This document shows, piece after piece, positions 54,001-60,418 of a stretch of DNA of 64,000 nt. The notes under the pieces were generated by a model that worked only from the letters and a program-made list of their open reading frames with translations, did not search any database and was not told where the DNA came from. This DNA is from Nocardioides eburneiflavus. GTDB lineage: Bacteria; Actinomycetota; Actinomycetes; Propionibacteriales; Nocardioidaceae. The first letter of the stretch is position 1, and each line of letters starts with the position of its first letter. The stretch lies in the NCBI RefSeq assembly GCF_004785795.1, contig NZ_SRRO01000001.1:3596001-3660000 (forward strand). Direction: 5' to 3'. Made by a program: the position numbers and the translations under genes.

Positions 54001-54140
54001 ACGTCGCGCTCGTGCCTCGCGCGCCGCTGCTCGTCTCATTTCGACGCGCTCGTGCGACTTCGTTCCTCAGTCGCGTCGCTTGCTCAATCTGGCCGAGCCC
54101 ACGCGTCGCGCTCGTACCTCGCGCGCCGCTGCTCGTCTCA
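54001..54140. repeat. Nested repeats: a REP-like element flanked by 38-bp direct repeats
   Basis: The direct repeats are 54001-54038 and 54103-54140 (36 of 38 identical; both end CCGCTGCTCGTCTCA). Between them, 54038-54088 starts ATTTCGACGCGC and ends TTGCTCAAT, a diverged REP-like copy. The second direct repeat holds the stop codon of the chelatase gene. Confidence 0.8.
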
Positions 54141-54881
54141 GACAGGCACGAGCTCCACCGCGCCCACGGCGTAGCGGGCGAGGATCGCGCGCGCGACGGC
54201 CGGGTGCGCGCCCAGCGGGTCGGAGACGGCGACGGCGCCGGCCTCGACGGCGAGCTCCGTCGCACGGTCCGGCAGCCGGCCCGGGGCGAGGAAGAACGAC
54301 GCGACCGCGATGTGGCGCTTGCCCGCGGAGCGGAAGGCGCGCACGGCCTCGCCGGCGGCCGGCGGTGCCGCGGAGGCGAACGCGGCCGTGACCGGGAGCC
54401 GGTGCCGCGCGCCCCACGTGCGGGCGATCCGGGCGACGGCCTGGTTGGCGAGCGGGTCGGAGGAGCCGGCGGCGGCGAGCACCAGGGCGTCGAGCTCGCG
54501 GACCCGCGCCGCCTTGAGCGCCTCGCGCAGCCGGACGTCGAGGACCTCGAGGAACGCGGTCTCCATGCCGAGGATGCGGCTCGCCTGGATCCGTACGCCC
54601 TCGTGCCGGGCCATGGCCGCCGCGATCGCCTCGGGGACGTCGACCTTGGCGTGGAACGCCTCGGTGAGCAGCAACGGCACCACGACGATCTCGTCGTGGC
54701 CAGCCTTGACGAGCCGGTCGACGACCGTGTCGAAGGACGGCTTCGACAGGTCGAGGAAGGCCGTCTCGATGCGGAGGTCGGGGCGCATGGCCTTGACCTC
54801 CGCGACGAGCGCCTTGATCGTCGCGGCGGATCGCGGGTCCCGGCTTCCGTGGGCCAGGGCAACCAGAGCAGGAGCAGCCAT
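54138..54881 (-). CDS. Sirohydrochlorin chelatase (CbiX/SirB type)
   Basis: Inserts iron into sirohydrochlorin to make siroheme, the cofactor of the sulfite reductase encoded nearby. It has 247 aa. The active-site His is in LVALAHGSRDPRSAATIKAL, and a second His lies in PLLLTEAFHAKVDVPEAI, both as in the two-domain SirB/CbiX family; the C-terminal half has VASFFLAPGRLPDRA. It is the last gene of the minus-strand sulfur cluster, separated from cysH by a 120-bp gap with a REP-like element. The stop codon lies within a direct repeat. Confidence 0.9.
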   Translation of the reverse strand: MAAPALVALAHGSRDPRSAATIKALVAEVKAMRPDLRIETAFLDLSKPSFDTVVDRLVKAGHDEIVVVPLLLTEAFHAKVDVPEAIAAAMARHEGVRIQASRILGMETAFLEVLDVRLREALKAARVRELDALVLAAAGSSDPLANQAVARIARTWGARHRLPVTAAFASAAPPAAGEAVRAFRSAGKRHIAVASFFLAPGRLPDRATELAVEAGAVAVSDPLGAHPAVARAILARYAVGAVELVPV

Positions 54882-54982: not shown

Positions 54983-55001
54983 GCTGGGCTGAGGGAGTGA
55001 G

Positions 55002-55745
55002 TCAGGCATGGATGCCGCACTCGGTCTTGGTGGTGCCGGCCCAGCGCCCGCTGCGCGGGTCGTCGCCGGGAGCGACGCGGCGCGTGCAGGGCCAGCAGCC
55101 GATGCTGGGGTAGCCGTCGTGGACGAGCGGGTTCACCAGGACCCCGTTGTCCTGGATGTAGCGCTCGACCTGCTCGTCGCTCCAGCGGGCCAGCGGGGAG
55201 ACCTTGACCTTGCCCTTGCGCGCGTCCCAGCCGACGACCGGGGCGATCACGCGGTTGTGCGTCTCGGCGCGGCGCAGCCCGGTGGCCCACGCGTCGTACT
55301 CGGCGAGCGTGTCGGCGAGCGGCTTGACCTTGCGCAACGCGCAGCACAGGTCGGGATCGGTCTTGTAGAGGTCCTTGCCGTACTGCGCGTCCTGCTCGGC
55401 GACCGTCTGTGCCGGGGTGACGGTGCGCAGGGTGACCGGCAGGGTCGCCTCGACGGCGTCACGCGTGCCGATGGTCTCGACGAAGTGGTAGCCGGTGTCG
55501 AGGAAGACCACGTCGATGCCCGGCGCGACCTTGGAGGCGAGGTGCGCCAGCACGGCGTCGCCCATCGACGAGGTGATCGCGAACCGGTCGCCGAAGGTCG
55601 CGACGGCCCACTCGATGATGACCTCGGCGGGAGCGAGCTCGAGCTCGGCGCCCACGTGGGAGACGAGCTCGCGCAGCTCCTCGGGCGTACGTCCCGCGGT
55701 GTGGGTGCCCTTGAAGTCGCGTGCGGCTCGGGTCGAGAGACTCAT
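55002..55745 (-). CDS. cysH: Phosphoadenylyl-/adenylyl-sulfate reductase, iron-sulfur type
   Basis: Reduces (phospho)adenylyl sulfate to sulfite in assimilation, 247 aa. It has the nucleotide-binding block FAITSSMGDAVLAHL, the cluster cysteines in PDLCCALRKVKPL and GCWPCTRRV, and the catalytic Cys in TECGIHA at the C-terminus. Cys-pair plus GCxxC indicates a [4Fe-4S] enzyme, usually with APS as substrate. The ATG overlaps the preceding gene's stop by 4 nt. Confidence 0.93.
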   Translation of the reverse strand: MSLSTRAARDFKGTHTAGRTPEELRELVSHVGAELELAPAEVIIEWAVATFGDRFAITSSMGDAVLAHLASKVAPGIDVVFLDTGYHFVETIGTRDAVEATLPVTLRTVTPAQTVAEQDAQYGKDLYKTDPDLCCALRKVKPLADTLAEYDAWATGLRRAETHNRVIAPVVGWDARKGKVKVSPLARWSDEQVERYIQDNGVLVNPLVHDGYPSIGCWPCTRRVAPGDDPRSGRWAGTTKTECGIHA

Positions 55746-55906
55746 GGTGTGCCTCCTCCGTTGCCGGGGTGCGGGATCATGCCGGTCATCTGGACGGTGA
55801 AGCTGCGCAGGCACGAGCGGCACTCCCAGGCGCCCGCACCCTCGCGCGGGAAGAGGTTCTCGTCCCCGCACCAGGGGCAGTGGAAGGGCACCGCACGTTC
55901 GGACAT
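55742..55906 (-). CDS. Small zinc-ribbon protein between sir and cysH
   Basis: A 54-aa protein with CPWCG and CRSC motifs 19 residues apart, the pattern of a zinc ribbon. It begins MSERAVPFHC and ends with a Gly/Pro tail. It overlaps sir (1 nt) and cysH (4 nt). A similar small gene occurs between the sulfite reductase and cysH genes of other actinobacteria; its role is unknown. Confidence 0.8.
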   Translation of the reverse strand: MSERAVPFHCPWCGDENLFPREGAGAWECRSCLRSFTVQMTGMIPHPGNGGGTP

Positions 55907-57618
55907 CAGACCGCCACCGGCTCCCCGCGCAGCAGGGCCTCGTCGGCTCGGGCGACCCACGCGGCGAACCGCTCGCCGTCTGTGCGGTCGGACAGGTACG
56001 CCGACACGACCGCGGTGACGTAGTCGTCGAGGCCGGCGCTGGTGACCTTGTGGGCGCGCAGCTTGCGGCCCATCGCCGGGTTGAGCCCGAGGGCCCCGCC
56101 GAGGTGCACCTGGAAGCCCTCGACCTGCTGGCCGTTGTCGTCCATGACCAGCTGGCCCTTGAGGCCGATGTCGGCGACCTGGGTGCGGGCGCAGGCGTTG
56201 GGGCAGCCGTTGACGTTGACCGAGATGTCGGTGTCGAGGTCGGGGAAGCGCTTCTCCAGCTCGGTCACCAGGCGACGTGCCCGCTCCTTGGTGTCGACGA
56301 TGGCGAGCTTGCAGAACTCGATGCCGGTGCACGCCATCGTGGAGCGGCGCCAGTTGCTCGGGCGGGCGGTCAGCCCGATCTTCTCGAGGTCGTCGGCGAA
56401 GGCCTCGGTGTCCTCGGCTGCGACGCCGATCACGACGAGCTTCTGGTAGGCGGTCAGGCGGGCGCCGCGGGCGCCGTACGACTCGACGAGGTCGGCGAGG
56501 CCGCTGAGCGTCGTGCCGTCGATGCGGCCCACGACGGGGGCGGCGCCGACGTAGAAGCGGCCGTCCTTCTGCTCGTGGATGCCGATGTGGTCACCCTGCT
56601 GCACGGGCGCCTCGGGGGAGGGGTTGTCGACGAGCTGCCGGTGCAGGTACTCGTTCTCGAGGACCTCGCGGAACTTGTCCTTGCCCCAGTCGGCGAGCAG
56701 GAACTTGAGGCGGGCCTTGGAGCGCAGCCGGCGGTAGCCGTAGTCGCGGAAGATGCCGGCGACGCCCTCCCAGGCGTCGGCGACCTCTTCGACGGGGATC
56801 CAGACGCCGAGCTTGTGCGCGAGCATCGGGTTGGTCGACAGCCCGCCGCCGACCCACAGGTCGAAGCCCGGGCCGTGCTCGGGGTGGACCGTGCCGACGA
56901 AGGACACGTCGTTGACCTCGGGCGCGACGTCGTGGCTCGGGTGGCCGGTCAACGCGGTCTTGAACTTGCGCGGCAGGTTGGAGTAGTCCGGGTTGCCGAG
57001 GATTCGCCGCTTGATCTCGCCGAGGGCCTCGGAGCCGTCGATGATCTCGTCCTTGGCGATGCCGGCGACGGGGGAGCCGAGGAAGGGGCGCGGGCTGTCG
57101 CCGCACGCCTCGAGCGTGGTGAGGCCGACGCCCTCGAGGCGCTCCCAGATCGCCGGGACGCTCTCGATCTCGATCCAGTGGTACTGGATGTTGTTGCGGT
57201 CGGTGATGTCGGCGGTGTTGCGGGCGTACGCCGTCGACACCTCGCCGAGCGCGCGCAGGGCTGGGCCGTCGAGGATCGCGCCGTCGGTGCGGACGCGCAT
57301 CATGAAGAAGCGGTCGTCGAGCTCCTCCTCCTCGAGCTGGGCGGTCTTGCCGCCGTCGAAGCCCGGGGCGCGCTGGGTGTAGAGACCCATCCAGCGGAAG
57401 CGACCGCGCAGGTCGGCCGGGTCGATGGAGTCGAAGCCGCGGCGCGAGTAGGTGTGGAGGATGCGATCGCGCACGTTGAGCGGGTCGTCGTCCTTCTTGG
57501 ACTGCTCGTTCTTGTTGAGCGGCTCGGTGTAGCCGAGCGCCCACTGACCCTCGGCGCGCTTCGGGCGCGGGATCTCGGTGTTCTGGGCGGCCTGGGGCTT
57601 GAACCGGAGGTCGGGCAT
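55906..57618 (-). CDS. sir: Ferredoxin-dependent sulfite reductase (nitrite/sulfite reductase family)
   Basis: Siroheme enzyme reducing sulfite to sulfide, 570 aa. The [4Fe-4S]-siroheme cysteines are in STMACTGIEFCKLA (near residue 430) and NVNGCPNACARTQ (near residue 472). The two-fold repeated ferredoxin-like halves are seen from NIQYHWIEIES and GVAAEDTEAFADDLEK. The ATG at 57618 has no good Shine-Dalgarno; upstream is a 19-residue leader peptide, which could control expression. The gene is first in the sulfur operon. Confidence 0.94.
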   Translation of the reverse strand: MPDLRFKPQAAQNTEIPRPKRAEGQWALGYTEPLNKNEQSKKDDDPLNVRDRILHTYSRRGFDSIDPADLRGRFRWMGLYTQRAPGFDGGKTAQLEEEELDDRFFMMRVRTDGAILDGPALRALGEVSTAYARNTADITDRNNIQYHWIEIESVPAIWERLEGVGLTTLEACGDSPRPFLGSPVAGIAKDEIIDGSEALGEIKRRILGNPDYSNLPRKFKTALTGHPSHDVAPEVNDVSFVGTVHPEHGPGFDLWVGGGLSTNPMLAHKLGVWIPVEEVADAWEGVAGIFRDYGYRRLRSKARLKFLLADWGKDKFREVLENEYLHRQLVDNPSPEAPVQQGDHIGIHEQKDGRFYVGAAPVVGRIDGTTLSGLADLVESYGARGARLTAYQKLVVIGVAAEDTEAFADDLEKIGLTARPSNWRRSTMACTGIEFCKLAIVDTKERARRLVTELEKRFPDLDTDISVNVNGCPNACARTQVADIGLKGQLVMDDNGQQVEGFQVHLGGALGLNPAMGRKLRAHKVTSAGLDDYVTAVVSAYLSDRTDGERFAAWVARADEALLRGEPVAV

Positions 57619-57693
57619 GTCAGGAGATTCCTGTTCGCTGAATGTGTGCCGCGCGCGACGTTGGGCGCGGAAGGGGTGTTGGGGCGGGCGGCG

Positions 57694-57753
57694 TCAGCGA
57701 TGCCAACAGGTCGCGCTGCCCACACGCATGAGGTCGACGTGACGTCGAACCAC
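57694..57753 (-). CDS. Leader peptide upstream of the sulfur operon
   Basis: A 20-codon frame encoding MVRRHVDLMRVGSATCWHR. It has the RRHVDLxRVxSxxC pattern of a short leader-peptide family found before sulfur genes in actinobacteria, with one Cys codon near the end. The GTG start is 6 nt after a -10-like CACACA. Between its stop and sir lies about 75 bp with a CCGCGC/GCGCGG stem (57649-57670). A regulatory role by cysteine supply is inferred. Confidence 0.7.
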   Translation of the reverse strand: MVRRHVDLMRVGSATCWHR

Positions 57754-57759
57754 GAGGTG

Positions 57760-57788
57760 TGTGTGGGTGGAGGCGGAGACCATGTCAA
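57760..57788 (-). promoter_or_regulatory. Predicted promoter of the sulfur operon
   Basis: TTGACA (57783-57788) is followed after 17 nt by CACACA (57760-57765) on the minus strand, 6 nt before the leader peptide's GTG. The -10 box is poor, so activation by a regulator is possible. Confidence 0.45.
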
Positions 57789-57909
57789 GAAGTCTCAGGG
57801 AGTGGACACCTGATCCACAAGACGAAATCTCGGCATGTGGGACCTAGAACCACCATGTGAGACGTCAGCCCGCCCCCACGCGAGGCGCGCGGGCCGGGTG
57901 CGGCCCAGG

Positions 57910-58527
57910 TCACACGGGTCGGCGCTCGCCGCAGGAGGCGATCCCGAGCCAGGTGTGCCGGTTGCCCCACCAGCACCACCCGAGCTTCACGGCGTCCCGG
58001 CGCTCGCGGCCGTCGCGCCCCGTGCCGTTGCTGATCCACAGCGCGGGCGTGCGGGCGTCGTACGACCCGTCGGCCCGCCGCAGACGCGAACCGGGCGTCA
58101 TGAAGCAGGCGTTGCGCTCGAGGACGCCGGGCTCCTGGAGCACCCAGTGCAGGCCCTCGGCGAGGGTCACGGGCGAGCGCCCAGCGGCGAGCAGCTCCGG
58201 GACCGACTCGGCCGGCGTCCGGTCGAGGTAGGCGTCGCCGCGGTCGAGGCCGAGCGCGACGTACGGGGCTGCCGGCACGTCGTCGGTGGGGGCGAAGAGG
58301 TCGACGTCGGTCATGTCCTCGACGACGAAGCCGTCCTTCTCCTCGTGGCCCCCCGCGCGGCGCAGCAAGGGCGCGAGGGCCGACGCCGGGGCGGAGGTCA
58401 CGAGGAGGCCGTCCGCGGGGCCGTGCGCAGCGAGCTCGCGCAGCCGGTCGGCGGGGATCCCGGCGACGTCGTGGACGCCGAGGCGGACGAGCCGCTCGGC
58501 CTGGTCGATCAGGGAAGGGAGGGCCAC
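57910..58527 (-). CDS. DUF5701 protein
   Basis: Conserved actinobacterial protein of 205 aa of unknown role. Typical features are ALPSLIDQAERLVRLGV, VALGLDRGDAYLDRTPAES, ALWISNGTG and the C-terminal VKLGWCWWGNRHTWLGIASC. The GTG at 58527 is the first start that avoids overlap with the divergent glyA promoter. No enzyme motif is recognised. It lies upstream of the sulfur operon on the same strand but has its own start region. Confidence 0.8.
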   Translation of the reverse strand: MALPSLIDQAERLVRLGVHDVAGIPADRLRELAAHGPADGLLVTSAPASALAPLLRRAGGHEEKDGFVVEDMTDVDLFAPTDDVPAAPYVALGLDRGDAYLDRTPAESVPELLAAGRSPVTLAEGLHWVLQEPGVLERNACFMTPGSRLRRADGSYDARTPALWISNGTGRDGRERRDAVKLGWCWWGNRHTWLGIASCGERRPV

Positions 58528-58614
58528 GCGGGTCCAACGCCCCACGCGCCTACGGGGTTCCCGTCCCGGTGTCCAGCGCCCGCGGGCCGCGAGCGCGCAC
58601 GCGCGAGCGGGCCC

Positions 58615-58620
58615 TAGGCT
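58615..58620 (+). promoter_or_regulatory. -10 box of glyA, leaderless
   Basis: TAGGCT ends 6 nt before the glyA ATG. No Shine-Dalgarno is present. Confidence 0.5.
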
Positions 58621-58626
58621 GGGGCC

Positions 58627-60063
58627 ATGACGGACTCCCTGATCAGCAGTGCGTACTCGCAGGCCCTCGAGGTCATCGCCTCGGTCGAACCCCGCATCGC
58701 GGAGGCGACCCGCCAGGAGCTGGCCGACCAGCGGGCCTCGCTCAAGCTGATCGCCTCGGAGAACTACGCGTCGCCCGCCGTGCTGATGACCATGGGCACC
58801 TGGTTCAGCGACAAGTACGCCGAGGGCACCGTCGGTCACCGCTTCTACGCCGGCTGCCAGAACGTCGACACCGTCGAGTCGCTCGCCGCCGAGCACGCCC
58901 GCGAGCTCTTCGGAGCGCCGTACGCCTATGTCCAGCCGCACTCCGGCATCGACGCCAACCTCGTGGCGTTCTGGTCGATCCTGGCCAACAAGGTGGAGAG
59001 CCCCTACCTGGAGAAGCTCCAGGCCAAGAACGTCAACGAGCTCACCGAGGCCGACTGGGAGACGCTGCGCCACGACTTCGGCAACCAGCGGCTGCTCGGC
59101 ATGTCGCTCGACGCCGGCGGTCACCTCACGCACGGGTTCCGCCCCAACATCAGCGGCAAGATGTTCCACCAGCAGCAGTACGGCACGGACCCGGAGACCG
59201 GGCTGCTCGACTACGACGCCGTCGCCGCCAAGGCGCGCGAGTTCAGGCCGCTCGTCCTCGTCGCCGGCTACTCCGCCTACCCCCGCCGGGTGAACTTCGC
59301 GAAGATGCGCGAGATCGCCGACGAGGTCGGTGCGGTGCTGATGGTCGACATGGCGCACTTCGCGGGCCTCGTGGCCGGCAAGGTCTTCACCGGCGAGGAG
59401 AACCCGGTCCCGTACGCCCACTTCACGACCACCACCACGCACAAGTCGCTGCGCGGCCCCCGCGGCGGCATGGTCCTGGCCCAGGAGGAGTTCGCCGCCG
59501 ACGTCGACCGCGGCTGCCCGATGGTCCTCGGCGGCCCGCTCTCGCACGTCATGGCCGCCAAGGCCGTGGCCTTCGCCGAGGCACGCACCCCCGATTTCCA
59601 GGCCTACGCCCAGCGCATCGCCGACAACGCGAAGTCCCTGGCCGAGGGGTTCCTGACCCGCGGCGCCAACCTCGTCACCGGCGGAACCGACAACCACCTC
59701 GTCCTGCTCGACGTGTCGTCCTTCGGTCTCACCGGCCGCCAGGCCGAGTCGGCTCTCCTCGACGCGGGCGTCGTGACCAACCGCAACTCGGTCCCGGCCG
59801 ACCCCAACGGCGCCTGGTACACGTCCGGCGTCCGGCTCGGCACGCCCGCGCTCACCACCCGCGGCTTCGGCCACGACGAGTTCGACACCGTCGCCGAGCT
59901 GATCGTCGACGTGCTCAGCAACACCGAGGCGGGCACGACCAAGGCGGGCGGGCCCAGCAAGGCGTCGTACGTCCTGGGCGACGGCGTCGCCGACCGCGTC
60001 ACCAAGCGGTCGGCCGAGATGCTCGACAAGCACCCGCTCTACCCGGGCCTGGTCCTCAGCTGA
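58627..60063 (+). CDS. glyA: Serine hydroxymethyltransferase
   Basis: PLP enzyme that converts serine to glycine and supplies one-carbon units, 478 aa. The PLP lysine is in [15 protein letters not shown] near residue 273. The N-terminal block [15 protein letters not shown] and the [12 protein letters not shown] strand are normal. Compared with about 420 aa in E. coli, there is an insertion of roughly 60 residues after the first third (around [20 protein letters not shown] to [12 protein letters not shown]), which I associate with a longer actinobacterial form. Confidence 0.95.
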
Positions 60064-60067
60064 TCGG

Positions 60068-60079
60068 GTCTACGTAGAC
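60068..60079. repeat. 12-bp perfect palindrome after glyA
   Basis: GTCTACGTAGAC lies 5 bp after the glyA stop. Its arm belongs to a CGCGCGTCTACG motif that occurs again at 60139-60160 and 60438-60459, on either side of the DUF559 remnant. Confidence 0.6.
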
Positions 60080-60110
60080 GCGCGGGCACAACGTCGCGCC
60101 GTGGGTGGCG

Positions 60111-60418
60111 TCACGCGGCGACCGGCCACGCCGCCAGAGGTTCCGTCCGCGTGTCTACGCCGACCGTCCGGTACAGGACCTCGCGCACCCAGGTCGGCCA
60201 CATCATCACGTCGTCCCAGGTGAACCGAAGGACGGTCCAGCCGTCGGCGGCCAGCAGGGTGTAACGCCGGACGTCCTTGGAGCCCAGCGACCTGCAGGCA
60301 GATCGCCCTCGTCACGGACTCGAACGGGTTCGCAGCGCGAGCATCGGCCTGCTCCGCGATCCGCCGCACCTTGGCGCTCCCTGCGCCACGGACGCTCGCC
60401 ACCACCCAGCTGAGCGTA
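60111..60418 (-). pseudogene. Remnant of a DUF559-type endonuclease-like gene
   Basis: Two pieces of one family are left in different frames. The 5' piece reads VVASVRGAGSAKVRRIAEQA and NPFESVTRAICLQVAGL. The 3' piece reads SKDVRRYTLLAADGW, VLRFTWDDVMMWPTWV and ends at a TGA at 60111-60113. A deletion and frameshift between them removed the catalytic core; about 100 of the usual 280-300 residues remain. The family is related to Vsr-type nucleases. The 60064-60453 stretch holds only this remnant and repeats. Confidence 0.75.
60139..60160 (+). repeat. 22-bp direct repeat, copy 1 (with 60438-60459)
   Basis: GGTTCCGTCCGCG and TGTCTACGC; the second copy has two changes. It lies in the 3' end of the DUF559 remnant. 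Confidence 0.7.

Follow-up and report, generated by a model that had tools for sequence, protein, structure and literature searches.

Ahead of its sulfite-reductase genes, a soil actinobacterium encodes a tiny peptide by which its ribosomes probably sense a shortage of cysteine. The window (the whole stretch of DNA that was analysed, 64,000 nucleotides) carries the frame for this peptide on its minus strand, and, as far as sequence can tell, the frame is a real and conserved member of a recognised leader family, NCBIfam NF042934; that it encodes a cysteine-related leader peptide ahead of the sulfite-reductase operon is strongly supported. The leader family itself already has a name; the new part, which we did not find described elsewhere, is a UGU codon locked to one register of the peptide. 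The leader and the genes behind it are as follows.

57694 to 57783, minus strand: leader ORF of 29 codons plus TGA, from ATG 57783 to TGA 57694, encoding MVSASTHTHLVVRRHVDLMRVGSATCWHR; matches NF042934
57706 to 57747, minus strand: conserved motif RRHVDLMRVGSATC, registers 0 to 13, from leader alignments
57706 to 57708, minus strand: putative sensing Cys codon TGT at register 13, from codon counts across leaders
55906 to 57618, minus strand: sir, nitrite/sulfite reductase (Pfam NIR_SIR, NIR_SIR_ferr)
55742 to 55906, minus strand: zinc-ribbon-like frame of 54 aa between sir and cysH (weak Pfam matches under cut-off)
55002 to 55745, minus strand: cysH-type PAPS/APS reductase (Pfam PAPS_reduct)
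54138 to 54881, minus strand: CbiX-type chelatase (Pfam CbiX)

The genes behind the leader form a sulfur operon (sir, cysH, cbiX), as expected of a cysteine-responsive attenuator. Against NF042934, named "putative leader peptide," the full 29-residue peptide scored 30.7 bits at a cut-off of 27, and a 20-codon version of the leader scored 29.5 bits; searching its own genome with the family gave the leader at E 6.7e-6. The same genome holds two further members of the family, both below the curated cut-off: one precedes a sodium:dicarboxylate-type symporter (Pfam SDF), the other a membrane-type frame to which no Pfam family matched, together with a sulfurtransferase-like frame (read by eye). An Rfam search of 55000-60200 with E up to 1 found no family at the leader, its one weak match lying on the opposite strand within sir. 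The earlier note had proposed looking for the frame upstream of sir in relatives, and it is indeed there: of the 573 related loci that a Sir-based search of named GTDB genomes gave, the best 80 were kept, most from Nocardioides and others from Aeromicrobium, Kribbella, and Streptomyces, and in 78 of these 80 it stood ahead of sir, which, together with the NF042934 score above cut-off, bears out that note's placing of a leader before the sulfite-reductase operon. The two loci without a leader were L069, which comes without upstream DNA, and L050 of Nocardioides jejuensis. The latter retains a promoter-like TTGTGA...GAGACT with no leader frame behind it; the sensor may have been lost there naturally.

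The leader had been described in the earlier note as a 19-residue, 20-codon peptide started by GTG, with a Cys codon near its stop and a 75-nt gap before sir. Such a frame is present on the minus strand (GTG GTT CGA CGT CAC ... TGT TGG CAT CGC TGA, 57753-57694, that is, (M/V)VRRHVDLMRVGSATCWHR), with its TGT at 57708-57706, and the gap from the leader stop to the sir ATG at 57618 was confirmed; the start and the length have to be corrected. Among 76 distinct sir leaders, the proposed start codon is GTG in 69, GTA in 5, and GTC in 1 (one more, L087, was mis-registered), and because GTA and GTC cannot serve as a start in those loci, the GTG start was rejected. An upstream ATG (69) or GTG (6) occurs in all 75 loci for which a start was picked, 8-10 codons above the earlier GTG, and in 75/75 its register is confined to -12 to -10, three neighboring positions 10-12 codons ahead of the motif. 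In the window this start is ATG 57783, and the GTG frame makes up the final two thirds of the resulting 29-codon ORF. Two boxes, both drawn from conservation across sir loci, precede it.

57815 to 57820, minus strand: -35-like box TTGTGG
57791 to 57796, minus strand: -10-like box GAGACT, 7 nt before the leader ATG

The layout in the window is therefore TTGTGG, 18 nt, GAGACT, 7 nt, ATG. A box of the form NANNNT lies 6-7 nt before the upstream start in 74/75 sir loci, against a background of about 10%, a spacing that is not fully independent evidence since the -10 score had a part in choosing the start. GAGACT itself serves as the -10-like box in 55/75 sir loci, and the T, T, G, and T of the -35-like box are kept in 72%, 96%, 77%, and 60% of the 75 loci, respectively. 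A plain sigma-70 consensus scan of 57500-58000 gave no promoter, so it is conservation that identifies TTGTGG and GAGACT. The promoter of the earlier note, TTGACA/CACACA, was rejected: TTGACA is present at 57788-57783, as a by-product of CTTGAC followed by ATG, yet TTGAC overlaps the start in only 31/75 sir loci, and the position of the proposed -10-like box has the NANNNT form in 4/75 loci (background about 10%) versus 74/75 for the upstream box. Because the -10-like box lies 6-7 nt before the start, the sir leader transcript is probably leaderless, with ATG 57783 at +1; the same -10 pattern is reported, in passages of PMC8079986, for leaderless promoters of Streptomyces lividans. About 43-48 nt before the leader start there is also a GAGATT-like block (57826-57831, minus strand), conserved at 57-72% per base in sir loci, a possible regulator site.

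We hold, with moderate confidence, that the best reading of this arrangement is a cysteine-responsive translational attenuator of the sir-cysH operon, the leader itself probably sensing cysteine. RNA polymerase would start at the leader ATG 57783, and a ribosome would load on the leaderless mRNA; when the sole UGU reached the A site, the RRHVDLxRVxSxxC motif, conserved as shown by the alignments, would by its expected geometry lie in the upper exit tunnel. With Cys-tRNA plentiful, the ribosome would pass UGU, three more codons, and the stop, and leave, after which UCGCUGA could pair with UCAGCGA by the sir Shine-Dalgarno sequence (SD), a helix that was computed together with its covariation, and sir translation would presumably be held down. 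With Cys-tRNA scarce, the ribosome would wait at UGU and cover the leader arm, leaving the sir ribosome-binding site (RBS) free. The elements concerned are the following.

57694 to 57700, minus strand: 5' arm UCGCUGA (last base of CAU, codon CGC, and stop), from fold, duplex, and covariation
57635 to 57641, minus strand: 3' arm UCAGCGA, directly before the SD, from fold, duplex, and covariation
57629 to 57632, minus strand: sir SD AGGA, inside a predicted hairpin CAGGA-AUC-UCCUG (57633-57621)
57642 to 57693, minus strand: C-rich, G-poor spacer (29 C and 11 G of 52), possible Rho loading site

Folding covered 76 of the 79 sir leaders (L087, L065, and L068 were left aside, their register or sir start being unclear), and the test of SD bases covered 74, two more having no SD. 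The leader end paired with its own pre-SD segment at -10.87 kcal/mol versus -9.74 +- 0.33 kcal/mol for permuted partners (49 clusters, fraction 0.0005), the clusters being defined by shared 8-mers as a rough guard against relatedness. The complement of a locus's own last codon plus UG was found upstream of sir in 27/76 loci, versus 21/1064 for other codons, and in 13/49 clusters; the two-sided exchanges comprised CGC/CAGCG (24 loci), TGC/CAGCA (L028), GGC/CAGCC (L048), and TCC/CAGGA (L038). All 27 of these loci are Nocardioides-type, and none belongs to Aeromicrobium, Kribbella, or Streptomyces. Covariation in Nocardioides-type loci thus suggests that the last codon and stop of the leader can pair with the sequence before the SD. 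Neither the 84-nt stretch around the SD (z -0.49) nor the whole leader RNA (z -1.23) is unusually stable. By eye, the closest relatives, L014-L017 and L020, share the SD hairpin.

In 113/211 leaders, UGU is followed by three sense codons and then the stop; given the size of the ribosome footprint, a ribosome waiting at UGU would therefore cover most of the leader arm. The earlier note had proposed that stalling at TGT refolds the 75-bp region before sir, a proposal that is moderately supported. In its favor, masking the stall footprint in the window lowered the predicted opening cost of the sir RBS to 9.8 kcal/mol, down from 13.0, and 17/76 loci showed a drop above 3 (2 and 3 of 76 with control masks). 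Against it, the same mask raised the cost by more than 1 in 12/76 loci, a control mask 27 nt upstream gave 10.0 in the window, close to the stall mask, and the four SD bases taken alone showed no release by stalling (0.06 to 0.07 unpaired in the window; up in 13/74 loci, down in 15/74). Release of these four bases by the stalled ribosome is accordingly unsupported, as they stay paired either way. A ribosome on the stop codon freed the RBS as much as a stalled one did (effect above 3 in 18/76 loci, 9.5 in the window, mean 10.42 versus 10.54 for the stall), so that dwell time would have to decide the switch, the ribosome stalling for long at UGU but resting only briefly at the stop. Reversed loci, the control mask, and the stop-codon effect together leave the evidence for the output step moderate.

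The main rival keeps the same sensor and replaces the output by Rho-dependent termination: the C-rich spacer would be exposed after the leader stop, and a stalled ribosome would shield the start of the site. We regard this as possible, though unlikely. Its case is built on composition, the 70 nt that follow the leader stop having more C than G in 76/77 sir loci and more than 1.5 C per G in 66/77 (adding the mis-registered L087 gives 77 and 66 of 78), compared with 42/97 and 12/97 for other 5' regions from the same loci, taken with a simple gene finder; across all leaders, the figures are 135/211 versus 14/211 for an upstream control stretch. It also fits the finding of no terminator-like site (0) in 57500-58000, where a classical transcription attenuator would have its intrinsic terminator, and passages of PMC1262725 (Seliverstov 2005) describe mycobacterial cys leaders of this kind without terminators and already suggest Rho for them. 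C-richness alone does not show Rho use, however; the covariation between leader end and SD favors translational control, and the work on Mycobacterium smegmatis is cited, in the passages concerned, as translation attenuation.

The new feature of the sensor is its codon usage. With the first Arg of the motif set as register 0, the Cys codon lies 13 codons later, at register 13, and 211 of the 217 distinct leaders have Cys there, encoded by TGT in 208 and by TGC in 3 (L107, L221, and L231). TGT occupies register 13 in 79/79 sir leaders, the window included, in 20/21 anonymised families (136 loci with a family number, the named sir loci excluded), and in 36/36 leaders fetched later. This later set (40 stretches, of which 2 were duplicates, 2 were unparsed [L326, with TGT, and L316, unscored], and 36 were counted) was drawn from the same match lists, its families being mostly and its genomes partly those already sampled, and hence tests the UGU rule rather than new lineages. 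The remaining six of the 217 comprise L087 and L119, which were mis-registered and both have TGT, the spurious L108, which has no Cys, and L234, L238, and L246, also without Cys. These last three are RRHIDL-type leaders with Ser, TGA, and Gly, respectively, at register 13, and are possibly decayed or different sensors. Eight loci fell outside the parsing pattern (L115, L118, L159, L182, L184, L205, L239, and L251), and all eight have TGT; because that pattern demands parts of the motif, motif residues are no independent evidence where it was used.

Three codon controls disfavor base composition as the cause of TGT: it accounts for 89 of 833 Cys codons in the downstream frames; Cys at register 6 of the same peptides is encoded by TGC in 69/71 cases (22/23 in the later set); and His2 and Asp4 are biased toward C-ending codons, 130 to 24 and 180 to 36. 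Cys at register 11 is mixed (33 TGC, 15 TGT). The poly-Cys leaders of family f4 in the survey have TGT at register 13, except L107, and in poly-Cys leaders TGT is also possible at other positions. Third positions beside register 13 vary, and Arg appears as both CGN and AGG, Ser as both AGC and TCN, which argues that the peptide is kept at the amino-acid level and the register-13 codon at the base level. Register 13 is followed by C or T in 205/211 leaders, over different amino acids; in the later set the next base was C or T in 29/36, A in 5, and G in 2, so that a pyrimidine after UGU was dropped as a strict rule and stands as a tendency.

Such a tendency would suit an explanation in which UGU is kept by RNA pairing, not by decoding, UGU-Y forming part of a paired element, for example an anti-SD in which GUC pairs with GAC of AGGAC, and GU(C) does pair with GAC/GGAC at the SD in some predicted duplexes. 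We nevertheless think it improbable. Changing UGU to UGC in silico shifted the opening cost of the sir RBS by a mean of -0.14 kcal/mol (22 lower, 16 higher, 38 within 0.5; n=76) and weakened the duplex in 24 but strengthened it in 26 of 76 loci; UGU persists in loci that have AGGAA as their SD and the pairing at another site; and the variable third positions nearby speak against it as well. A role of UGU as a pairing element is thus unsupported by folding and duplex results alike, and, given the lack of a consistent folding effect, the constraint looks like one of decoding.

The genome gave 45 tRNA matches, including one tRNA-Cys, with anticodon GCA. UGC and UGU are read by this same tRNA-Cys (GCA), UGU through a G-U wobble. 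In passages of PMC1183508, biased control codons in attenuators are explained by selective charging of isoacceptors; with a single tRNA-Cys found, isoacceptor charging cannot separate UGU from UGC here. We infer that UGU is kept for its slow wobble decoding: reading by G-U wobble would make the sole tRNA-Cys slow at UGU and let decoding fail early. Extending this, we tentatively propose, at somewhat below even confidence, that actinobacterial Cys leaders carry a register-locked UGU 13 residues into an arrest-like motif, decoded by slow wobble by the sole tRNA-Cys, and are tuned by codon-anticodon geometry together with the nascent chain, not by codon counting or isoacceptor choice. If true, one rule would hold for sulfur genes across many families, and the near-invariant wobble U, with UGC a few codons off as a built-in control, would allow a clean one-base test of whether wobble sets attenuator sensitivity. 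No description of the UGU rule was found in the literature searched (most subscription papers being outside reach), and a search for the leader motif gave one unrelated paper. The nearest report, in passages of PMC9094748, is that six regulatory small ORFs of M. tuberculosis have their G/C skew reduced by Cys codons and that codon choice there may be restricted by other constraints.

A sensor of another kind would be an arrest peptide, in which the nascent chain, alone or with free cysteine bound in the tunnel, halts the ribosome near Cys13 and uncharged tRNA is not the signal. TnaC, which arrests the ribosome with Trp, provides a precedent, and the motif residues of the present leaders, kept at the amino-acid level and with constant spacing to the Cys codon, are consistent with it. 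Poly-Cys versions (CCCCCC in L094 and L096) look instead like codon counters, and a base-level constraint on UGU is unexpected if only the Cys residue counts; we judge an arrest peptide of this sort to be quite unlikely.

Beyond sir, leader-family matches were found in 16/197 genomes of the phylum and 36/59 of the genus (E up to 0.001; one match in the phylum, L108, is spurious) and in 225/393 genomes of the class (E up to 0.0001). Among 131 of the 136 frames behind other leaders (L133, L135, L136, L138, and L142 were not searched), taken as the longest open frame and thus in some cases maybe non-coding, the commonest Pfam was rhodanese (41), followed by NIR_SIR_ferr (14) and by sulfatase, SDF symporter, DUF1416, and luciferase-like monooxygenase (5 each). 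With the leader so conserved, its promoter spacing fixed, and its placement ahead of sulfur genes, a chance frame or an ordinary small protein without regulatory role is scarcely credible.

Compared with known systems, the leader has the same motif as NF042934 (cis_reg_atten) and likewise lies ahead of a sulfur operon; that family is a protein profile without codon information and was compared here by name and scores. Through this leader, whose start is corrected here and whose end has a pairing partner beside the SD, the named family now reaches the sir operon of a Nocardioides-like genome. Mycobacterial leaders were reportedly found by Canestrari, in 2020, to attenuate translation in response to cysteine. 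Passages of PMC4633059 (Shell 2015) describe Cys-rich leaderless small ORFs before mycobacterial nirA and cysA2, the one before cysA2 being ribosome occupied, and passages of PMC13236596 and PMC9031893 cite Cys leaders of mycobacteria as attenuators of translation. Our leader resembles these ORFs (nirA/Msmeg_4527 and cysA2/Msmeg_5788) in its like target genes, its related motif (29.7 bits for the full peptide against NF042936, the Ms4527A Cys-rich leader model), and its likely leaderless start; it differs in scoring under the Ms4527A cut-off of 45 and in having one Cys codon where theirs form a run, no run near the stop of the kind seen in poly-Cys leaderless attenuators being present here. 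The alphaproteobacterial uORFC-8-2 motif before cysS, as presented in passages of PMC8632094, has two tandem Cys codons, mainly UGC, and an intrinsic terminator. It shares with our system a Cys-codon leader thought to sense charged tRNA-Cys, whereas one UGU is found here and no shared motif was noted; since its Cys codons are mainly UGC, UGU is not needed for cysteine sensing in general. With the classical leu and thr attenuators, as treated in passages of PMC1183508, the common trait is a bias in control codons; there the bias arises from several isoacceptors, whereas here one tRNA-Cys was found.
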